From: Gemmatimonadota bacterium
GTDB lineage: Bacteria; Gemmatimonadota; Gemmatimonadetes; Longimicrobiales; Gaopeijiaceae
Direction of reading: 5' to 3'
DNA length: 64,000 nt
NCBI GenBank assembly: GCA_022826005.1
Contig: JAJDVT010000015.1
Span: 1-64,000, forward strand
The notes under the pieces were generated by a model, which worked only from the letters and a program-made list of their open reading frames with translations, searched no databases and had not been told where the DNA came from. The position numbers and the translations under genes are program-made. Of the stretch, positions 19,329-29,251 are shown piece by piece; position 1 is the stretch's first letter; each line of letters opens with the position of its first letter.

Positions 19329-21608
19329 ATGAGGGCCTCGCCCCAAACCCAGCAGCACCTGGGGCTCCTTGCCGCTACCGGCGTTGGCGTTGGCGCCATC
19401 GTCGGCAGCGGCATCCTCGCGCTCGCCGGCGTCGCCTTTGCGACGACCGGCCCGAGCGCGATCCTGGCGTTCGCCCTGAACGGGGTGATCGCGATGATCA
19501 CGGTGTGCTCGTTCGCGGAACTCGCCGCGCGCTTCCCGCAGTCGGGGGGCACCTACACCTATGCGCGCAAGGTCCTCACGGTGGAGGCCGCCTTCGGGGT
19601 GGGGTGGGTGGTGTGGTTCGCGTCGGTGGTGGGTGCGGTGCTCTACGCCATGGGCTTCGCGGTCTTCCTGGTCCCGTTCCTGGAGCAGATCGCCCTGATG
19701 ACGGGCGGCGAGGTCCCCTGGTGGGTCGGGACACGCCTTGCGGTGGTGGCGTATGCGCTGTGCGCGGTGGGCTTCTACTCGTGGCGACTGACCCGGACCG
19801 CGGCGGGCGGCGGGCAGTGGGAGACGATCGGCAAGGTCGTTGTGTTCATTGTCCTGCTCGTCGCGGGTTTCTTCGCGCTGGCCGGCGAGGCCCCGGGGCC
19901 CGGTGCGCTCGCGGCACGCTTCCGGCCGTTCTTCTCGGATGGATTCGTGGGGCTGGCGCAGGCTATGGGCTACACCTTCATCGCGCTGCAGGGGTTCGAC
20001 CTGATCGCGGCGGTGGGCGGAGAGGTACGCGACGCGAAACACAACATCCCGCGGGCGATGTTCCTGTCGCTGGGCACCGCGCTGGTGATCTACCTGCCGC
20101 TCCTCTTTCTGATCGTGGCGGTGGGGGCTCCGGGCCAGCCGGTGACGGAGGTGGCGGCGGAGTACCCGGAGATCCTGGTGGCGGTAGCGGCGCGCAACTT
20201 CATGGGCCCGATGGGATACTGGCTGGTGCTGGCGGCGGGGCTCCTGGCGATGCTCTCCGCGCTGCAGGCCAACCTGCTGGCCGCGTCCCGCTTCGCGCGC
20301 ACCATGGGGACGGACCGGACGCTGCCGCCCCGCTACGCCCGGCTCGCACCGGGCACCGGCACACCGACCGCGGCCGTGCGCCTGAGCGCCGTGGTGGTCG
20401 CGTTTCTCATCATTGCGGTCCCGGATGTGGCGGCGGCCGGCGCGGTGGCGAGTCTCATCTTCCTGACGAGCTTCGCCCTTACGCACGGGATCGGGTACCT
20501 GGCGCGGAAACGGGCGGGCAGGCCCGAGGGATTCCGCACACCCTGGTTCCCGGCCGTGCCGGTGGTGGGCGGATCGGCCTGTCTGGCGATCGGCCTCTAC
20601 CAGGCGGTGGCGGTGCCGCCCGCCGGGGTGCTGGCGGCGCTCTGGCTGGGCGTGGGGGCGATTCTGTACGCGATCCATCTCGCGCCGCGCGCGCGTGTGG
20701 TGGACGCCTCCTCGGAGGGGATGGACCCGCAGATGGTGAAGCTGCGCGGCCGCCGGCCCGTGGTACTCGCGCCGATCGCCAACCCGGCCAGCGCGGAGAC
20801 GCTGGTGACGATGGCGAAGGCGCTCGCGCCCCCCGAGGTCGCGCGGGTGCAGCTGCTCTCGGTCGTGTCGCCGCCGGAGCGCTACGACCCCGACGAGCTG
20901 CCGAGTGAAGTCCGCGACGCCCAGGCGGTCCTGGGGGGCGCGCTGAGCACGGCGATGGATGTGGATCTTCGCCCGGAGGCGCTGATCACGCTGCACGGCG
21001 ACCCCTGGGGAGAGATCGCCAGGGTGGCGGAAGCGACGCGGTGCGAGAGCCTGCTCCTCGGCGTCGGGCACCTCGACGACTCGCTGATGACGGGGTCGCT
21101 CGCCCGCCTGATCGGCGCCGTGGACGCCGACGTGGTGATTCTGCGCGCACCGAGCGAATGGACGCCGGAGATGGCCCGGCGGATTCTGATTCCGTCGCGA
21201 GGCGGCCGCGATCAGAGCCCGGTGCGCGCTCGGTTGCTCGGCAGTCTCGCGCGGACCGCGCCCCGCGACGTGACCTTCCTGGGTGTGCTCTCGGAGGAGG
21301 CGGGTGCCGGCGTGCACCGGCGGGCGCGCCGGGATCTGGAGCGGCTGGCCTGGGACGAGCTGGGGGACGCCGCTCACGCCGAACTGGTTGTCGCGGACGA
21401 CATCGCGGGGGAGGTCGCGCGCCGCGCCGCCGATACCGACCTCCTGATTCTGGGATTCCACCGCAGCGGACGCCGCCGCGCCGTCTTCAGCAGTCTCATG
21501 CTGCGGATTGCCCGGGCCACGGAGTGCCCGCTGCTGATGATCAGCCACCGCCGTGGCGCGGCGCTGCTTCCGGAGGCCTCGCGGCTATCCCGGAGGCCGC
21601 AGGGTTGA
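19329..21608 (+). CDS. APC-family amino acid permease fused to two universal-stress-protein domains
   Basis: A 759-residue inner-membrane protein. Residues 1-465 contain about twelve hydrophobic segments and the APC signature start (GLLAATGVGVGAIVGSGILA), a helix-3 ELAARFPQSGGTYTYA motif, and ALQGFDLIAAVGGEVRDAKHNIPRA. After PRARVV the chain becomes cytosolic with two Usp-like Rossmann domains (about 485-615 and 625-750), recognisable from PVVLAPIANPASAETLV, LLLGVGHLDDSLMTGSLARLI and RRILIPSRGG, LLILGFHRSGRRRAVFSSLMLRI. APC-Usp fusions are known; the Usp part may bind ATP and regulate transport. It starts 16 bases after the peptidase, suggesting coupled uptake of peptide-derived amino acids. 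Confidence 0.9.
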   Translation: MRASPQTQQHLGLLAATGVGVGAIVGSGILALAGVAFATTGPSAILAFALNGVIAMITVCSFAELAARFPQSGGTYTYARKVLTVEAAFGVGWVVWFASVVGAVLYAMGFAVFLVPFLEQIALMTGGEVPWWVGTRLAVVAYALCAVGFYSWRLTRTAAGGGQWETIGKVVVFIVLLVAGFFALAGEAPGPGALAARFRPFFSDGFVGLAQAMGYTFIALQGFDLIAAVGGEVRDAKHNIPRAMFLSLGTALVIYLPLLFLIVAVGAPGQPVTEVAAEYPEILVAVAARNFMGPMGYWLVLAAGLLAMLSALQANLLAASRFARTMGTDRTLPPRYARLAPGTGTPTAAVRLSAVVVAFLIIAVPDVAAAGAVASLIFLTSFALTHGIGYLARKRAGRPEGFRTPWFPAVPVVGGSACLAIGLYQAVAVPPAGVLAALWLGVGAILYAIHLAPRARVVDASSEGMDPQMVKLRGRRPVVLAPIANPASAETLVTMAKALAPPEVARVQLLSVVSPPERYDPDELPSEVRDAQAVLGGALSTAMDVDLRPEALITLHGDPWGEIARVAEATRCESLLLGVGHLDDSLMTGSLARLIGAVDADVVILRAPSEWTPEMARRILIPSRGGRDQSPVRARLLGSLARTAPRDVTFLGVLSEEAGAGVHRRARRDLERLAWDELGDAAHAELVVADDIAGEVARRAADTDLLILGFHRSGRRRAVFSSLMLRIARATECPLLMISHRRGAALLPEASRLSRRPQG

Positions 21609-21676
21609 TCCCGGAGGCGTCCCGCCCGTTCAAGGTGCAGCCGCGGCCGGTCCGCGAGCAGCGCGGGCTCTTGGCG

Positions 21677-21740: not shown

Positions 21741-21980
21741 GCTTGCAGCCGTCGAGCCCGCCCGCAGCCGTCGAGCCCGCGCGCAACCGTCCGAGCTCGT
21801 GCACAACGGTCAGCCCCGCGCACAGCCGCCGGCCCCACGAGCCATCCGTCGGCTCTGCGAGCATCGTCACAGCCCCAACAGCACCGTCGCGACCCTGCGA
21901 GCACCGTCGCGACCCTGCGAGCACCGTCACGGCCCCACGAGCACCGTCGCGACCCCGCAAACACCGTCACGACCCCGCAA
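21741..21980. repeat. Degenerate 20-bp tandem repeat array (left array)
   Basis: Twelve head-to-tail units of exactly 20 bases. The cleanest is GCACCGTCGCGACCCTGCGA at 21881 and 21901; flanking copies diverge progressively (GCACCGTCACGGCCCCACGA at 21921, GCTTGCAGCCGTCGAGCCCG at 21741). There are no spacers, so this is not CRISPR. The last unit contains the stop codon of the minus-strand CehA-type gene, so the gene ends inside the array. Confidence 0.9.
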
Positions 21981-24471
21981 GCAGCCTCTCGTACACCCGC
22001 GCGGCCTCGTCCACCCTGGACAGGAACCGTGCCCGGTCGGCCTCGCTCACCCAGCGGTCGCGAGCCACCACCCTCTCGCGGAAGGACTGCACGGCCGCGA
22101 GCAGGAAGCGGACGTCGTCCTCCGAGCGGTAGTCGCGCCCGCCCGCCACTACCCACACCGGACTGGTCTGGGCGAAGGCATAGCTGTCCGGGACGAGCGG
22201 AGAGTACGGTCCCAGCGCCCGGGCAGCGATCCACCCGCTCCCCTCCAGCGTCACCCGGCTCTCGACCCGGAAACGGTCGGGGCGGCCACGCACATCGTGC
22301 ACCTCCGCGACCTCGCCGTTGACAACGATCTCCACGCGGTCGAGCGGACTGTTCGACGCGACCTCCACCGCCACGTCCCACTCTCCGGCGTGTCCGCCCG
22401 GCACCCGGATCTCGCTGCCGGGAAGCTCGCCGTCCACCGTCAGAAAGAGCAGCGGCCCGTTTGTCGCGAATGTGCGCCGCTCCCGGATGGCCTCCAGCCA
22501 CGCGTCCACCGAGAGCGGCCCTTCCAGGTGGGCAAAGGTGCGGCTCGCGCCCGGCCCGGGATCCCGCCACACATCGGAGAAGTTGTCCGTCCCCCCTGTG
22601 GCGGCGAGGCGGAAGCCCGCATTCAGCAGCCGGTAGTAGATCTCGGCGTTGCGGAGCTCGTCGTACCAGAAACAGATGACATCGTAGAAGTCGGCCAGAC
22701 CGAGCGCCGCGTCGACCGGAATCTCCGAGCTGCCCACGGACTCCGGAGTGTCCACGCTACCGCTGAAGGGGTGCATGAACCCGACCGTGCCGCCGACCGC
22801 CCGGGCCGCCTCGAGATAGTCGCCGTTGAAGAGGTCCGCCGCGAAGGGTGTGTTGGCAGCGCCCCCGATCAGCGGCATGATGAACTCGCCGATCCCGGCC
22901 AGCCCCACATGCCCGAACGATCCCCGGAACTCCTGCGCGTACTGCAGGATGTGGGTGTCGGTGGACAGTGGGTGCGGCCGTCCCGTAAGGTCGTCCCAGC
23001 GTCCCATCAGGCGGGTCCCGTCCATGTGGATCAGGGCGATGGAGACGTGCAGGTCCTCGCTCACGAGGGCGTCGACGAAGTCCTGGTGCGAGAGCCCGTA
23101 GCGGCCCTGGTGCAGGTCGTGGACGTGCGTGTCGCCCCCGTACCAGCCCCTGGCAGGCGCGTCGACCAGGCGGCCGAGCTCCAGCGACGCGTCGGCGCGG
23201 CCGCCGGGAGGGACGTCTACGATGGTCGTGACGGGGCGGTACTCCACACCCCGCCGCACGGAGATCGTGACCGGGCCCGCGGGAACCTCCACCTCGAAGT
23301 CTCCCGTGGTGCGGAAGTGGTGCGTCTCGGTCGGCGACACCACGCGGTGAAAGGAGCCCCGCGGGCTGTACCCCCTACCGTCACCGGCGACGACGGAGAC
23401 GCGCGCGGCCATCGGCTCGCCACCCTCCCCCACAACACGGCCGCGCAGCACCCCCATCGCCCCGGCATACCGGCGCTCACCCACGTCCAGCGTGCGCCAC
23501 GAACTCCGGGCGCCCCCGGAAACGGCCATCACGTGCAGCTCGGTGGCGCCGCTCTCGTTCGAGACGAAGGCGATGCCGCCTCCGTCGGGGCTGACGCGCG
23601 GCGTGAGTTCGTGGCTCAGCCCCCCGGTCAGCCGCAGCGGGTTTCCCCCGTCCGCGGCGATCAGCACCAGGTCGTTCGACCCGGCTTCGTCGGACACGTA
23701 CACGAACCCCTCGCCGCGCGGCAGCCAGTCCGGGCGGGCGCGGTAGGCGGTCTCCTCCGCACGCACCAGCCGCGGTTCTCCCCCCGCCAGGTCGCGCGTC
23801 CAGATCCCCCCGCTCCCTGTGACGCCCGGCGCCGGCGCCATGTAGACGAGCACCCCGCCCGGCGAAACGCGCGGCTGGTACTGGCTGCCGCCGTCCTCCA
23901 CGACCGCCTCGCGCTCCCCGGTCGCCACCTCGATGCGGTGAATGTCCAGCCCCCGTCCCGCCGTCGTGAAGTAGACGAAGCGGCCGTCCGGCCCCCACGC
24001 GGGCTGAATGTCGATGCCGCCGCCCTCCGCCAGCGGCGTCACCGCCCCGGTCTCGACGTCCAGCAGGGCGATGTCCAGTCCGTCCCCCGTTTCCACGGTC
24101 ATCGCGATCCTGGACCCATCCGGGCTCCAGCTCGGCTCGAAGTGGTACCACGGCCCCCGGGTGAGCTGCTCGGCGCCGCCGCCGCCGGCCGGCACCCGCC
24201 AGATGTCGCCGGCCATGGCAAAGGCGATCCACCGGCCGTCGGGGGACCAGTCCGGGCTCATCGGTCCCGTGCTCACGGGGGGAAGCATGTGCAGCTCCCC
24301 GCGGATGTTCCCGTTGAGGCTGGAGTACCGGAGCACGGGGGTGCTCTCGGGCTGTTGGGGGCCGGTGGCCGGTGGCGGCGGAGTCGTCGCGGCCAGGTCG
24401 GTCCGCGCCGGGCCCGGTGTCCCGAGCGCCAGCGCGGTGGCGAGAATCGTGGCGGATGGGATCGATCGCAT
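21967..24471 (-). CDS. Exported WD40-like (PD40) propeller fused to CehA/McbA-type metallohydrolase
   Basis: An 834-residue protein with a signal peptide (MRSIPSATILATALALG). Residues about 45-360 hold repeated TolB/PD40 blades (SPDWSPDGRWIAFAMAGDIW, FEPSWSPDGSRIAM, QPAWGPDGRFVYFT, TPRVSPDGGGIAFVS). After a small beta domain that looks carboxypeptidase-regulatory-like (GVLRGRVVGEGGEPMAARVSV), a PHP/CehA-type metallohydrolase domain carries GDTHVHDLHQGR, IHMDGTRLMG, VGFMHPFSG and ATGGTDNF, the expected metal ligands. Likely a periplasmic phosphoesterase or amidohydrolase; substrate unknown. The ATG at 24471 has GGAGG 5 bases upstream, although the frame stays open through the array farther upstream. 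The stop lies in the left repeat array. Confidence 0.85.
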   Translation of the reverse strand: MRSIPSATILATALALGTPGPARTDLAATTPPPPATGPQQPESTPVLRYSSLNGNIRGELHMLPPVSTGPMSPDWSPDGRWIAFAMAGDIWRVPAGGGGAEQLTRGPWYHFEPSWSPDGSRIAMTVETGDGLDIALLDVETGAVTPLAEGGGIDIQPAWGPDGRFVYFTTAGRGLDIHRIEVATGEREAVVEDGGSQYQPRVSPGGVLVYMAPAPGVTGSGGIWTRDLAGGEPRLVRAEETAYRARPDWLPRGEGFVYVSDEAGSNDLVLIAADGGNPLRLTGGLSHELTPRVSPDGGGIAFVSNESGATELHVMAVSGGARSSWRTLDVGERRYAGAMGVLRGRVVGEGGEPMAARVSVVAGDGRGYSPRGSFHRVVSPTETHHFRTTGDFEVEVPAGPVTISVRRGVEYRPVTTIVDVPPGGRADASLELGRLVDAPARGWYGGDTHVHDLHQGRYGLSHQDFVDALVSEDLHVSIALIHMDGTRLMGRWDDLTGRPHPLSTDTHILQYAQEFRGSFGHVGLAGIGEFIMPLIGGAANTPFAADLFNGDYLEAARAVGGTVGFMHPFSGSVDTPESVGSSEIPVDAALGLADFYDVICFWYDELRNAEIYYRLLNAGFRLAATGGTDNFSDVWRDPGPGASRTFAHLEGPLSVDAWLEAIRERRTFATNGPLLFLTVDGELPGSEIRVPGGHAGEWDVAVEVASNSPLDRVEIVVNGEVAEVHDVRGRPDRFRVESRVTLEGSGWIAARALGPYSPLVPDSYAFAQTSPVWVVAGGRDYRSEDDVRFLLAAVQSFRERVVARDRWVSEADRARFLSRVDEAARVYERLLAGS

Positions 24472-24569
24472 GCGGGCCTCCGGTGGCTGGCGGTCAGGCT
24501 TCCGATTTGTCCGCTGCCGGCTTCGCGCGCAAGGGATGAAGCCTCCACGAACCGGATTTCGCGGGGATG

Positions 24570-24818
24570 CCAGCCGTCCCGGGTGGGCCAGTCGTCCCGC
24601 ATGGGGCCAGCCGTCCCGCATGGGGCCAGCCGTCCCGCATGGGGCCAGCCGTCCCGTATGGGGGCAGCCGTCCCGCATGGGGCCAGCCGTCCCGCGTGGG
24701 GCCAGCCGTCCCGTATGGGGGCAGCCGTCCCGCATGGGGCCAGCCGTCCCGCGCAGGTGCAGGCCGTCCCGCGAGGCGGCAGGCCGCCGCGCATGGAACC
24801 AAACCGCCGCGCTCAGTG
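24570..24818. repeat. 19-bp tandem repeat array (right array)
   Basis: Eleven to thirteen tandem units, mostly 19 bases: CCAGCCGTCCCGCATGGGG and variants ending CGTATGGGG or CGCGTGGGG, with some starting GCAGCC. A 57-base higher-order repeat of three units is visible (24626-24682 against 24683-24739). Outer units are degenerate. The array fills the divergent gap between the CehA-type gene and blaI and ends about 16 bases before the blaI -35 box. It shares the core GCAGCCGTC with the left array. No spacers. Confidence 0.92.
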
Positions 24819-24833
24819 TACCTAAGAAAGTAG

Positions 24834-24862
24834 TTGACATTTTGCCACACGCCCCCTACCTT
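24834..24862 (+). promoter_or_regulatory. Promoter of the blaI-M56 operon
   Basis: A consensus -35 TTGACA, a 17-base spacer and TACCTT. It is the best promoter match in the window after the rrn-like RNA promoters. BlaI repressors normally bind near their own promoter; I see no clear TACA-N-TGTA dyad here. Confidence 0.65.
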
Positions 24863-24996: not shown

Positions 24997-25374
24997 ATGA
25001 CCTTGAGCCGCAGACTGACCGAGCGCGAACTCGACATCATGTCGATCCTGTGGGACCTGGGGTCGGCAACGGTCTCGGAGGTGAACGAACGCCTCGACGA
25101 CGACCTCGCCTACAACACCGTCCTGACGGTGCTCCGGATCCTTGAGGCGAAGGGTCTGGTGAGCCATCGCAAGGAGGGGCGGGCCCACCGCTACCATCCG
25201 CTGCTTGGACGCGAGGAAGCGGGGCGGTCCGTCGTCGCGCGCATGCGGGACAAGCTTTTCAAGGGTTCGGCCGAGCTGCTCGTGACGCAGCTCGTATCGG
25301 AAGAACAGCTTTCGCCGGAAGCCGTGAAGCGCCTCCGCAAGCTGCTGGATCAACGTCTGGAAGAGGAGAAGTAG
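24997..25374 (+). CDS. BlaI/MecI/CopY-family transcriptional repressor
   Basis: A 125-residue winged-helix repressor. The DNA-binding domain is LTERELDIMSILWDLGSATVSEVNERL with AYNTVLTVLRILEAKGLVSH and the wing RKEGRAHRYHPL; the C-terminal helices (ARMRDKLFKGSAELLVTQLV) form the dimer interface cleaved by M56 partners in the classical system. AGGGAG abuts the ATG directly, so the true start may be the TTG at 25003, which has proper spacing; the difference is two residues. The M56 gene begins 2 bases after its stop. No beta-lactamase gene is nearby. Confidence 0.92.
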   Translation: MTLSRRLTERELDIMSILWDLGSATVSEVNERLDDDLAYNTVLTVLRILEAKGLVSHRKEGRAHRYHPLLGREEAGRSVVARMRDKLFKGSAELLVTQLVSEEQLSPEAVKRLRKLLDQRLEEEK

Positions 25375-25376
25375 CG

Positions 25377-26807
25377 ATGATTGCCGCCTGGATGCTCTGG
25401 TCGGTCGGAGCCGGTCTGCTGTTTCTGTTGGCAGGCCTGGCCTTGGAAAGAATCCTGGATGGTGAACGGCGCTGGGTCTGGGTCGGGGCCGGGGTCGGGA
25501 CGGTCGTGCTCACCGCCATGCGGGTGTTTTCGCATGGCGGTGCCGGATCGGTTGGCGGTGGCGTGGAGGTGGGCACAGTGCTGGGACTGGCGCCCGGTTC
25601 GGCTGCGGCGGAAGGCGCCGTCGCGGCAGGCGCGCCCGGTTTCCTCGGGTTCGCCGTGCCGTACGATTCGGTCCTGCACACGCTGGACGGGATCCTTCTT
25701 CCCGTCTGGGTGTTGCTGTCCTGTGGCCTGGTCCTGTGGGCCCTGATCGGCACCGCCGACCTCGTGCGCCGGCGCCGCTTCTGGGAACGGGGGACGCTGC
25801 TCGGCCGCTCCGTGCTGTGGGCGCCCAACGCGGGCCCCGCGGTGATCGGACTCCTGCGGCCCCGCGTGGTCCTGCCGGCCTGGGTGAGGGGCGTGGAGCG
25901 GTCCAGGCAGAAGCTGATCCTGGCGCACGAGGAGGAACATCTCGAGGCCCGCGACGCCGTCCTGAGATTCTTCATGGCGGTCCTGCTTATCGCGTTCCCC
26001 TGGAATCCGGCGCTCTGGTTCCACTACCGGCGCCTGTGCCTGGCCATCGAACTCGACTGCGACCAGCGCGTCATGCAGCGGCTCCCGCACCGCCGCTGGC
26101 TCTACGGGGACCTGCTCTTCCGCGTGGGTGCCCACGTCCGCTCCCGTCCGGGTCTCGCGCTGGCCGCGTTCGCGGAGCGCCCGTCGTTCCTTGAATCGCG
26201 GATCCGCAAGCTGCTGGACAGGGCGCCCGAGGTTGGGCTGGCCCAGGTCGCGTTCCTGGCCTTCGCCGCAATCATGGTGATCGGCGTGGCCGTGTGGGCG
26301 CCGGGGATCACGCGGGAGACGCCGGTTCCGGAGCTGGAGGCGGTCCCGGCGGCCAGCGACGTGGTATCGGAGCAGGAATCGGCGGAGGACCCTGTGGGTG
26401 AGCGGTACATCATCGTTTCGGGTGTAGCCGGCCGCGAACCCGCGGTAAGGATCGGGCCACTCCCGGCGGAGGTGGAGGCCGAGCCGGAGTTGCACGAGAG
26501 GCCGAAGTTCGTGGTTCACACCGTGCGGCCCCGGTTGCTGAACGACGAGGAGGTCAAACGGGCTCTGGAGCGTGAGTATCCGGCCCTGCTCAAGGACGCC
26601 GGCATCGGCGGCACCACCGAGGTACATCTGTTCGTCGGCGAGACCGGGCGGGTCGAAAACGCGCTGGTAAAGGAGACTTCGGGGCATGTGGCTCTCGATG
26701 AGGCCGCGTTGAAGACCGTCAGGGTCGGCAGGTTCTCTCCAGCGATGAACCGGGACAAGGTGGTGGCGGTCTGGCTGTCGATGGACATCACCTTCGGGGC
26801 GAACTGA
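25377..26807 (+). CDS. BlaR1-type M56 metallopeptidase with C-terminal TonB-like domain
   Basis: A 476-residue membrane protein. Three hydrophobic segments precede the zinc peptidase motif AHEEEHLEARD (HExxH), followed by AFPWNPALWFHYRRL and AIELDCDQRVM, the M56 signatures. Another transmembrane helix (LAFAAIMVIGVAVWAP) leads to a periplasmic part whose last 95 residues are a TonB-C/energy-transducer fold (GTTEVHLFVGETGRVENALV, ALDEAALKTVRVGRFSPA). It is the likely sensor/protease partner of the upstream BlaI. M56-TonB-C fusions are frequent in environmental diderms, where the signal is unknown. Confidence 0.92.
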   Translation: MIAAWMLWSVGAGLLFLLAGLALERILDGERRWVWVGAGVGTVVLTAMRVFSHGGAGSVGGGVEVGTVLGLAPGSAAAEGAVAAGAPGFLGFAVPYDSVLHTLDGILLPVWVLLSCGLVLWALIGTADLVRRRRFWERGTLLGRSVLWAPNAGPAVIGLLRPRVVLPAWVRGVERSRQKLILAHEEEHLEARDAVLRFFMAVLLIAFPWNPALWFHYRRLCLAIELDCDQRVMQRLPHRRWLYGDLLFRVGAHVRSRPGLALAAFAERPSFLESRIRKLLDRAPEVGLAQVAFLAFAAIMVIGVAVWAPGITRETPVPELEAVPAASDVVSEQESAEDPVGERYIIVSGVAGREPAVRIGPLPAEVEAEPELHERPKFVVHTVRPRLLNDEEVKRALEREYPALLKDAGIGGTTEVHLFVGETGRVENALVKETSGHVALDEAALKTVRVGRFSPAMNRDKVVAVWLSMDITFGAN

Positions 26808-28543: not shown

Positions 28544-29251
28544 TCAACCGGCTGGCTGGTCTCCCGGTCCGCCCGGCGCCCGGGGAGGCTGGTCATACCG
28601 TCCCCCGTCCCGGTCCGCTCGTCCCCGGCCCCGGTCCGGCGCCTCCCGTCCGCGGTTCATGTCCCCGCGCCAGCGGTCCACCGCTCCCCGCCACCGGCCC
28701 GGCGCTCCGCGCCCACGCGCATCCCGCAGGCGGTCGAAACGCGCGCTCCCGCGGCCGTCGCGCACGGTCCGGTCACGCCAATCGAAACGCCGGTTCAGTT
28801 GCCGGATCTCCTGCCGCTGCTCCTCTGTCAGGATCTCGGCGTAGCGGTCCCGCATCCCGGCCAGGCCTTCGCTGGCCTGCGCGGCCATCTCCCGCGCCTC
28901 GGCGCGCATCGCCTCCGGCTCGCGGATCCCGGCCCGGATCTCCGAGAGCAGTTCCATCTGCTGTACGGCCCGGCTCGTGCGCATCTCCAGCAACTCGACC
29001 CGAATGGACTCCAGCTGCTCGCGCTGCCGGGCGGTGAGTTCCAGTTCGTCGCCCAGCCGGATGACCCGCTCCACGGTGAGGTTGCCGCCCGCGGTCCGCA
29101 TGCCTGCCGCCCGCATGCCCGCGCCCCAGCCGCCGCGATTGCCGCCACCCCATCGCTGCGCCGCCGCCTCGGGCGCAACCGCCATCGCGGTCATCATCAA
29201 CCCCAGCGCGGCTGCGACCATCCCGGACCTCGAGAAATATGCCCTCATCAT
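28544..29251 (-). CDS. Spy/CpxP-like (LTXXQ motif) periplasmic protein
   Basis: A 235-residue exported protein. After a signal peptide (MVAAALGLMMTAMAVAPEAAAQ), a helical core contains two LTXXQ motifs, LTARQREQLESIR and LTEEQRQEIRQL, separated by an amphipathic helix (EPEAMRAEAREMAAQASEGL). This pattern is that of Spy-type ATP-independent chaperones and zinc-resistance-like proteins. The last 75 residues are extremely Arg/Gly/Asp-rich and likely disordered. The start ATGATG at 29251 has AGGGAGA upstream on the minus strand. Function inferred from family only. Confidence 0.75.
   Translation of the reverse strand: MMRAYFSRSGMVAAALGLMMTAMAVAPEAAAQRWGGGNRGGWGAGMRAAGMRTAGGNLTVERVIRLGDELELTARQREQLESIRVELLEMRTSRAVQQMELLSEIRAGIREPEAMRAEAREMAAQASEGLAGMRDRYAEILTEEQRQEIRQLNRRFDWRDRTVRDGRGSARFDRLRDARGRGAPGRWRGAVDRWRGDMNRGREAPDRGRGRADRDGGRYDQPPRAPGGPGDQPAG

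Follow-up and report, generated by a model that had tools for sequence, protein, structure and literature searches.

Two tandem-repeat arrays beside a conserved CehA-type gene in a Gemmatimonadota genome

Units of about 20 bp, often in tandem, reportedly make up the small dispersed repeats of cyanobacteria described by Elhai et al. in 2008; the two arrays considered here are built of units of similar length, each confined to a single locus, whereas the cyanobacterial repeats are said to be spread through the genome. The minisatellites and VNTRs of bacteria, which belong to the microdiversity within species, are likewise short arrays of head-to-tail repeats (PMC2884548). Within this class the present arrays have units of 19–21 bp, and one of them carries evidence of growth from the 3′ end of a gene. 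In Mycobacterium tuberculosis, the rnc-fpg1 repeats give a spacer of 358 bp, against 1–54 bp in mycobacteria outside the complex, and longer repeats go with higher expression (PMC2734929); the copy number of a promoter repeat is phase-variable in the same species (PMC12817950). Our locus resembles VNTR3239/ETR-F (PMC2734929) and the promoter tandem repeats (PMC12817950) of M. tuberculosis in that the spacer of one lineage has lengthened within an unchanged gene order while that of its relatives is short. It differs in that VNTR3239/ETR-F units are longer (37–79 bp), and in that the M. tuberculosis repeats have been shown to vary between strains and to be linked to expression, whereas the arrays described here are known from sequence alone.

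The arrays lie in a 64,000-nucleotide stretch (the window; positions 1 to 64,000 of contig JAJDVT010000015.1) of a 4.85-Mb, 143-contig assembly, one at each end of a gene for an exported metallohydrolase (Table 1). The assignment of this gene to an exported WD40/CehA type in the initial annotation is borne out by profile search: residues 442–774 score 189.8 bits with NF038032 (CehA_McbA), for which the cut-off is 80, and the protein also has a signal-peptide-like segment and PD40/TolB-like propeller repeats. As the same annotation had it, the stop codon falls inside the last left-array unit, TGA being the complement of 21967–21969. The ATG is preceded by a Shine-Dalgarno-like GGAG and lies outside the right array. 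The frame was also said to remain open through the right array, and it does so, to 24840, as do several other frames on both strands. We do not take this as coding evidence, since the stretch is GC-rich with many open frames, a 19-bp unit is not divisible by three, and homology to the nearest relative, G005, places the start at 24471.

Table 1. Features of the locus, in window coordinates
Feature	Coordinates	Strand	Description
Amino-acid permease + UspA	19329..21608	+	convergent neighbour; also in G005 and most relatives
Left array	21745..~21983	-	~12 degenerate units of 19-21 bp, consensus GCTCGCAGGGTCGCGACGGT (minus strand); spacer of two convergent genes
3′ gene end	21967..22020	-	last 20-nt coding stretch CGAGAGGCTGCTTGCGGGGT continues array register; conserved in G005 as CGAGAGGCTGCTCGCGGGGT; likely seed of left array
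PD40 beta-propeller + CehA/McbA metallohydrolase gene	21967..24471	-	exported, 834 aa; ATG at 24471, start conserved in G005
Right array	24569..~24770	-	~11 units of 19 bp (GGGACGGCTGGCCCCATGC); spacer of two divergent genes
Conserved spacer around GCGGCGGTTTGGTTCCATGC	24794..24818	-	upstream edge of right array, aligned to G005, partly conserved; possible right-array seed
TTGACA-N17-TACCTT	24834..24862	+	promoter-like block before BlaI-type gene; conserved in G005, less exactly in G022
BlaI/penicillinase-repressor family regulator and M56/TonB-C protein	24997..26807	+	divergent neighbours

Tandem arrays are indeed present at both gene ends, with TRF scores of 188 (left) and 305 (right) against maxima of 72 and 71, respectively, when each stretch was Markov-shuffled 200 times; both are head-to-tail arrays well above chance, as in minisatellites and VNTRs. 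The left score is the best for that array and belongs to a higher-order period of 60 bp, period 20 scoring 126. Initially described as being in exact register, the left units are in fact degenerate, matching at 77–90% and following one another in steps of 19–21 bp, and the gene-proximal one overlaps the stop codon of the CehA-type gene. The right array comprises 11 minus-strand starts of GGGACG[GA]C at spacings of 20, 19 (eight times) and 18 bp, and its units are 90% alike (TRF).

Comparison with 22 other genomes of the genus revealed a long homologue match in 16, at 73–90% identity and split into two pieces in two of the 16; in G015 the gene is present in two pieces, and every genome searched returns some match because propeller repeats are common. 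G005 (L030, the contig also listed as JAPOOQ010000065.1, L119), the nearest relative and the nearest genome for a VNTR comparison, is 88% identical at the DNA level over the gene and its permease side and 82–89% identical over short pieces on the upstream side. Permease, CehA-type gene and BlaI gene stand in identical order there, and the alignment is continuous but for the missing arrays, with a left spacer of ~55–100 bp and ~30 bp in place of the right array. G022 has the same order without arrays, most other members of the genus have the ortholog and its permease side without arrays, and TRF detected no array of either unit at any ortholog in the genus. By parsimony from these array-less orthologs, both arrays are gains on the lineage of their own genome. 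G001 carries an array of 3.4 copies of a 24-bp unit, unlike those of the window, in the corresponding convergent spacer, immediately past the orthologous gene (L115:13899–13979); arrays have therefore arisen in this spacer on more than one occasion. Matches to a GACGG-spaced pattern are scattered through other genomes of the genus, with no such array found by TRF at the orthologous loci; a GACGG array at L158:18982–19064 and a similar one in G017 align only within the repeat, and their flanks differ.

We consider it very probable that these are two VNTR-like intergenic minisatellites of slippage type, independent of each other and specific to this lineage, beside a conserved gene, most likely near-neutral and forming no mobile unit; as repeats, the arrays are real and of an ordinary kind. 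The left array seems to have arisen by tandem duplication, many times over, of the 3′ end of the gene itself, since its register continues into the conserved last codons (reading CGAGAGGCTGCTTGCGGGGT, CGTGACGGTGTTTGCGGGGT, CGCGACGGTGCTCGTGGGGC and on, the first block being coding) and the array-less gene end of G005 matches the left unit at 16 of 20 positions, a value equalled by 5 of 500 shuffled units. In the left spacer, head-to-tail duplication of the final ~20 nt of the gene would thus have occurred repeatedly, presumably through replication slippage or unequal recombination; the copies would then have drifted, and the first of them to be derived now holds the stop codon. On the right, a 19-bp segment of the spacer itself probably multiplied likewise: a seed at the upstream edge of the array (GCGGCGGTTTGGTTCCATGC) is plausible by position, but the resemblance between the G005 spacer and the right unit is not significant, 221 of 500 shuffles reaching it. 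Because its copies are more alike, the right array is probably the more recent, which would place it after the left in the order of events. Neither array would need a dedicated enzyme, and at most the right one may tune transcription or the leader of the divergent genes. Of the origins and roles proposed in the initial annotation, a slippage-prone element is the best-supported origin; the proposal that the arrays are cassette ends fails on the syntenic relatives that have none.

That proposal, in which the arrays would delimit a mobile or exchangeable cassette with the gene as its cargo, is suggested by their placement on either side of a single gene, and we give it practically no weight. G005 has the same neighbours on both sides and neither array; gene and arrays are not present or absent together, since G005 and other relatives have the gene at this position without them; the ortholog is widespread in the genus; and no recombinase adjoins the CehA-type gene in the window. 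The initial annotation had itself named the same gene in array-less relatives as the finding that would decide against a cassette, and this is what was observed. Nor are related sequences found at the two ends. The arrays had been described as related, and a literal 9-mer, GCAGCCGTC, does occur in each; in cyclic alignments to the right unit, however, the scores of left sub-arrays A and B were reached by 173 and 370 of 400 base-shuffled units, respectively, so the resemblance of the units does not exceed that of shuffles and common ancestry of the two arrays is rejected. Neither unit recurs outside its own locus: in its own genome the left unit matches itself alone, the best other match of the right unit is 24 bp long (E 0.026), and a plasmid search returned no copy of the right array. 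A genome-wide family of either unit, comparable to dispersed repeats at many loci, is likewise rejected. An assembly artefact, with array length mis-assembled from short reads, is a little less remote and still very improbable: the assembly has 143 contigs and tandem repeats are reported to cause assembly errors (PMC6868369), yet many units are anchored by differing substitutions and the flanks align cleanly to G005, although the assembled number of copies may yet be inexact.

A regulatory role is the other alternative of interest. By analogy with M. tuberculosis, the right array could act as a promoter tandem repeat, changes in its copy number switching or tuning expression of the CehA-type gene, of the divergent BlaI regulator or of both, with the left array neutral; we regard this as unlikely. 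The right array lies between divergent genes and ends ~60 bp upstream of the conserved TTGACA-N17-TACCTT block (read from the sequence and relatives' alignments; a consensus scan did not return it), the high similarity of its units makes it probably recent and slippage-prone, and precedents exist (PMC2734929, PMC12817950). Relatives with the same promoter nevertheless manage without the array, and no RNA structure is found at it. An effect of the right array on regulation, from its position upstream of the BlaI-type promoter, is possible by that analogy. Somewhat less probable again is a broader reading: in this uncultured Gemmatimonadota lineage the right array would be a fast-evolving copy-number switch that tunes a BlaI/M56-type sensor-regulator pair together with the exported metallohydrolase, while the left would show that gene 3′ ends repeatedly seed arrays. 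Structured RNA was rejected as an explanation: the RNA fold of the arrays shows no excess over shuffles (z −0.07 and −0.76) and Rfam gives no match at them. A terminator scan found none at the locus.

To place the pair among the repeats of its genome, arrays with periods of 12–40 bp were counted in 1.26 Mb sampled from it, using a simple home-made gene finder. Thirty were intergenic (~550 spacers measuring 30 bp or more were counted), corresponding to 167 per intergenic Mb versus 55 per genic Mb and, by rough extrapolation, to ~115 in the whole genome; intergenic densities in G001 and G021 are similar. Arrays of at least five copies numbered only three, two of which flank the CehA-type gene. 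Multiplication gives an expectation of ~0.06 double-bracketed genes per genome for arrays of at least five copies, and ~6 if short arrays are counted, a rough and post hoc estimate that assumes ~2,100 spacers per genome and includes the arrays under study. Two long arrays around one gene are therefore mildly unusual. GACGG/CCGTC occurs in 8 of the 30 intergenic arrays (3 of the 8 being the arrays in question) against 3.5 expected, a count reached in 12 of 500 trials. The abundance of intergenic arrays favours the reading as two independent minisatellites; the scarcity of long ones and this GACGG/CCGTC frequency count against it.

Several further repeats were observed. At the permease 3′ end (window 21563–21618), a 20-bp mini-array of 2.7 copies (ATCCCGGAGGC...) contains the permease stop codon, a further instance at this locus of repeats at a gene 3′ end, and more weak arrays (period 21–24 bp) occupy a GC-rich stretch close to a predicted gene end at window 28599–28760. 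Elsewhere in the genome, a MITE-like dispersed element of ~250 bp (L184–L189, around 1501–1746, and L182:5365–5610) has sharp ends and imperfect terminal inverted repeats, AGCAGCCCGTGGACAAAATCC ... TTATCCACGGACTGCT. Approximately 40 scored copies (44 matches) at 73–95% identity occur in this genome, and G020 has one or more; in several cases among those examined, the element comes directly after a stop codon and is oriented as the adjoining genes. The element has no Rfam match, and no copy was seen in the window. G021 carries a 23-bp, four-copy array, TGATCGGCATGCTCTGGAATCAC, at several places, some mirrored (L169 3709–12508, L172:16260–16350), which may be part of a repeated mobile element.

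For this locus, the analysis removes a candidate mobile cassette. In its place, G005 and the genome of the window form a clean before/after pair of an array that appears to have grown from the last codons of a gene, a pair that would be of modest use for the study of how bacterial minisatellites start.
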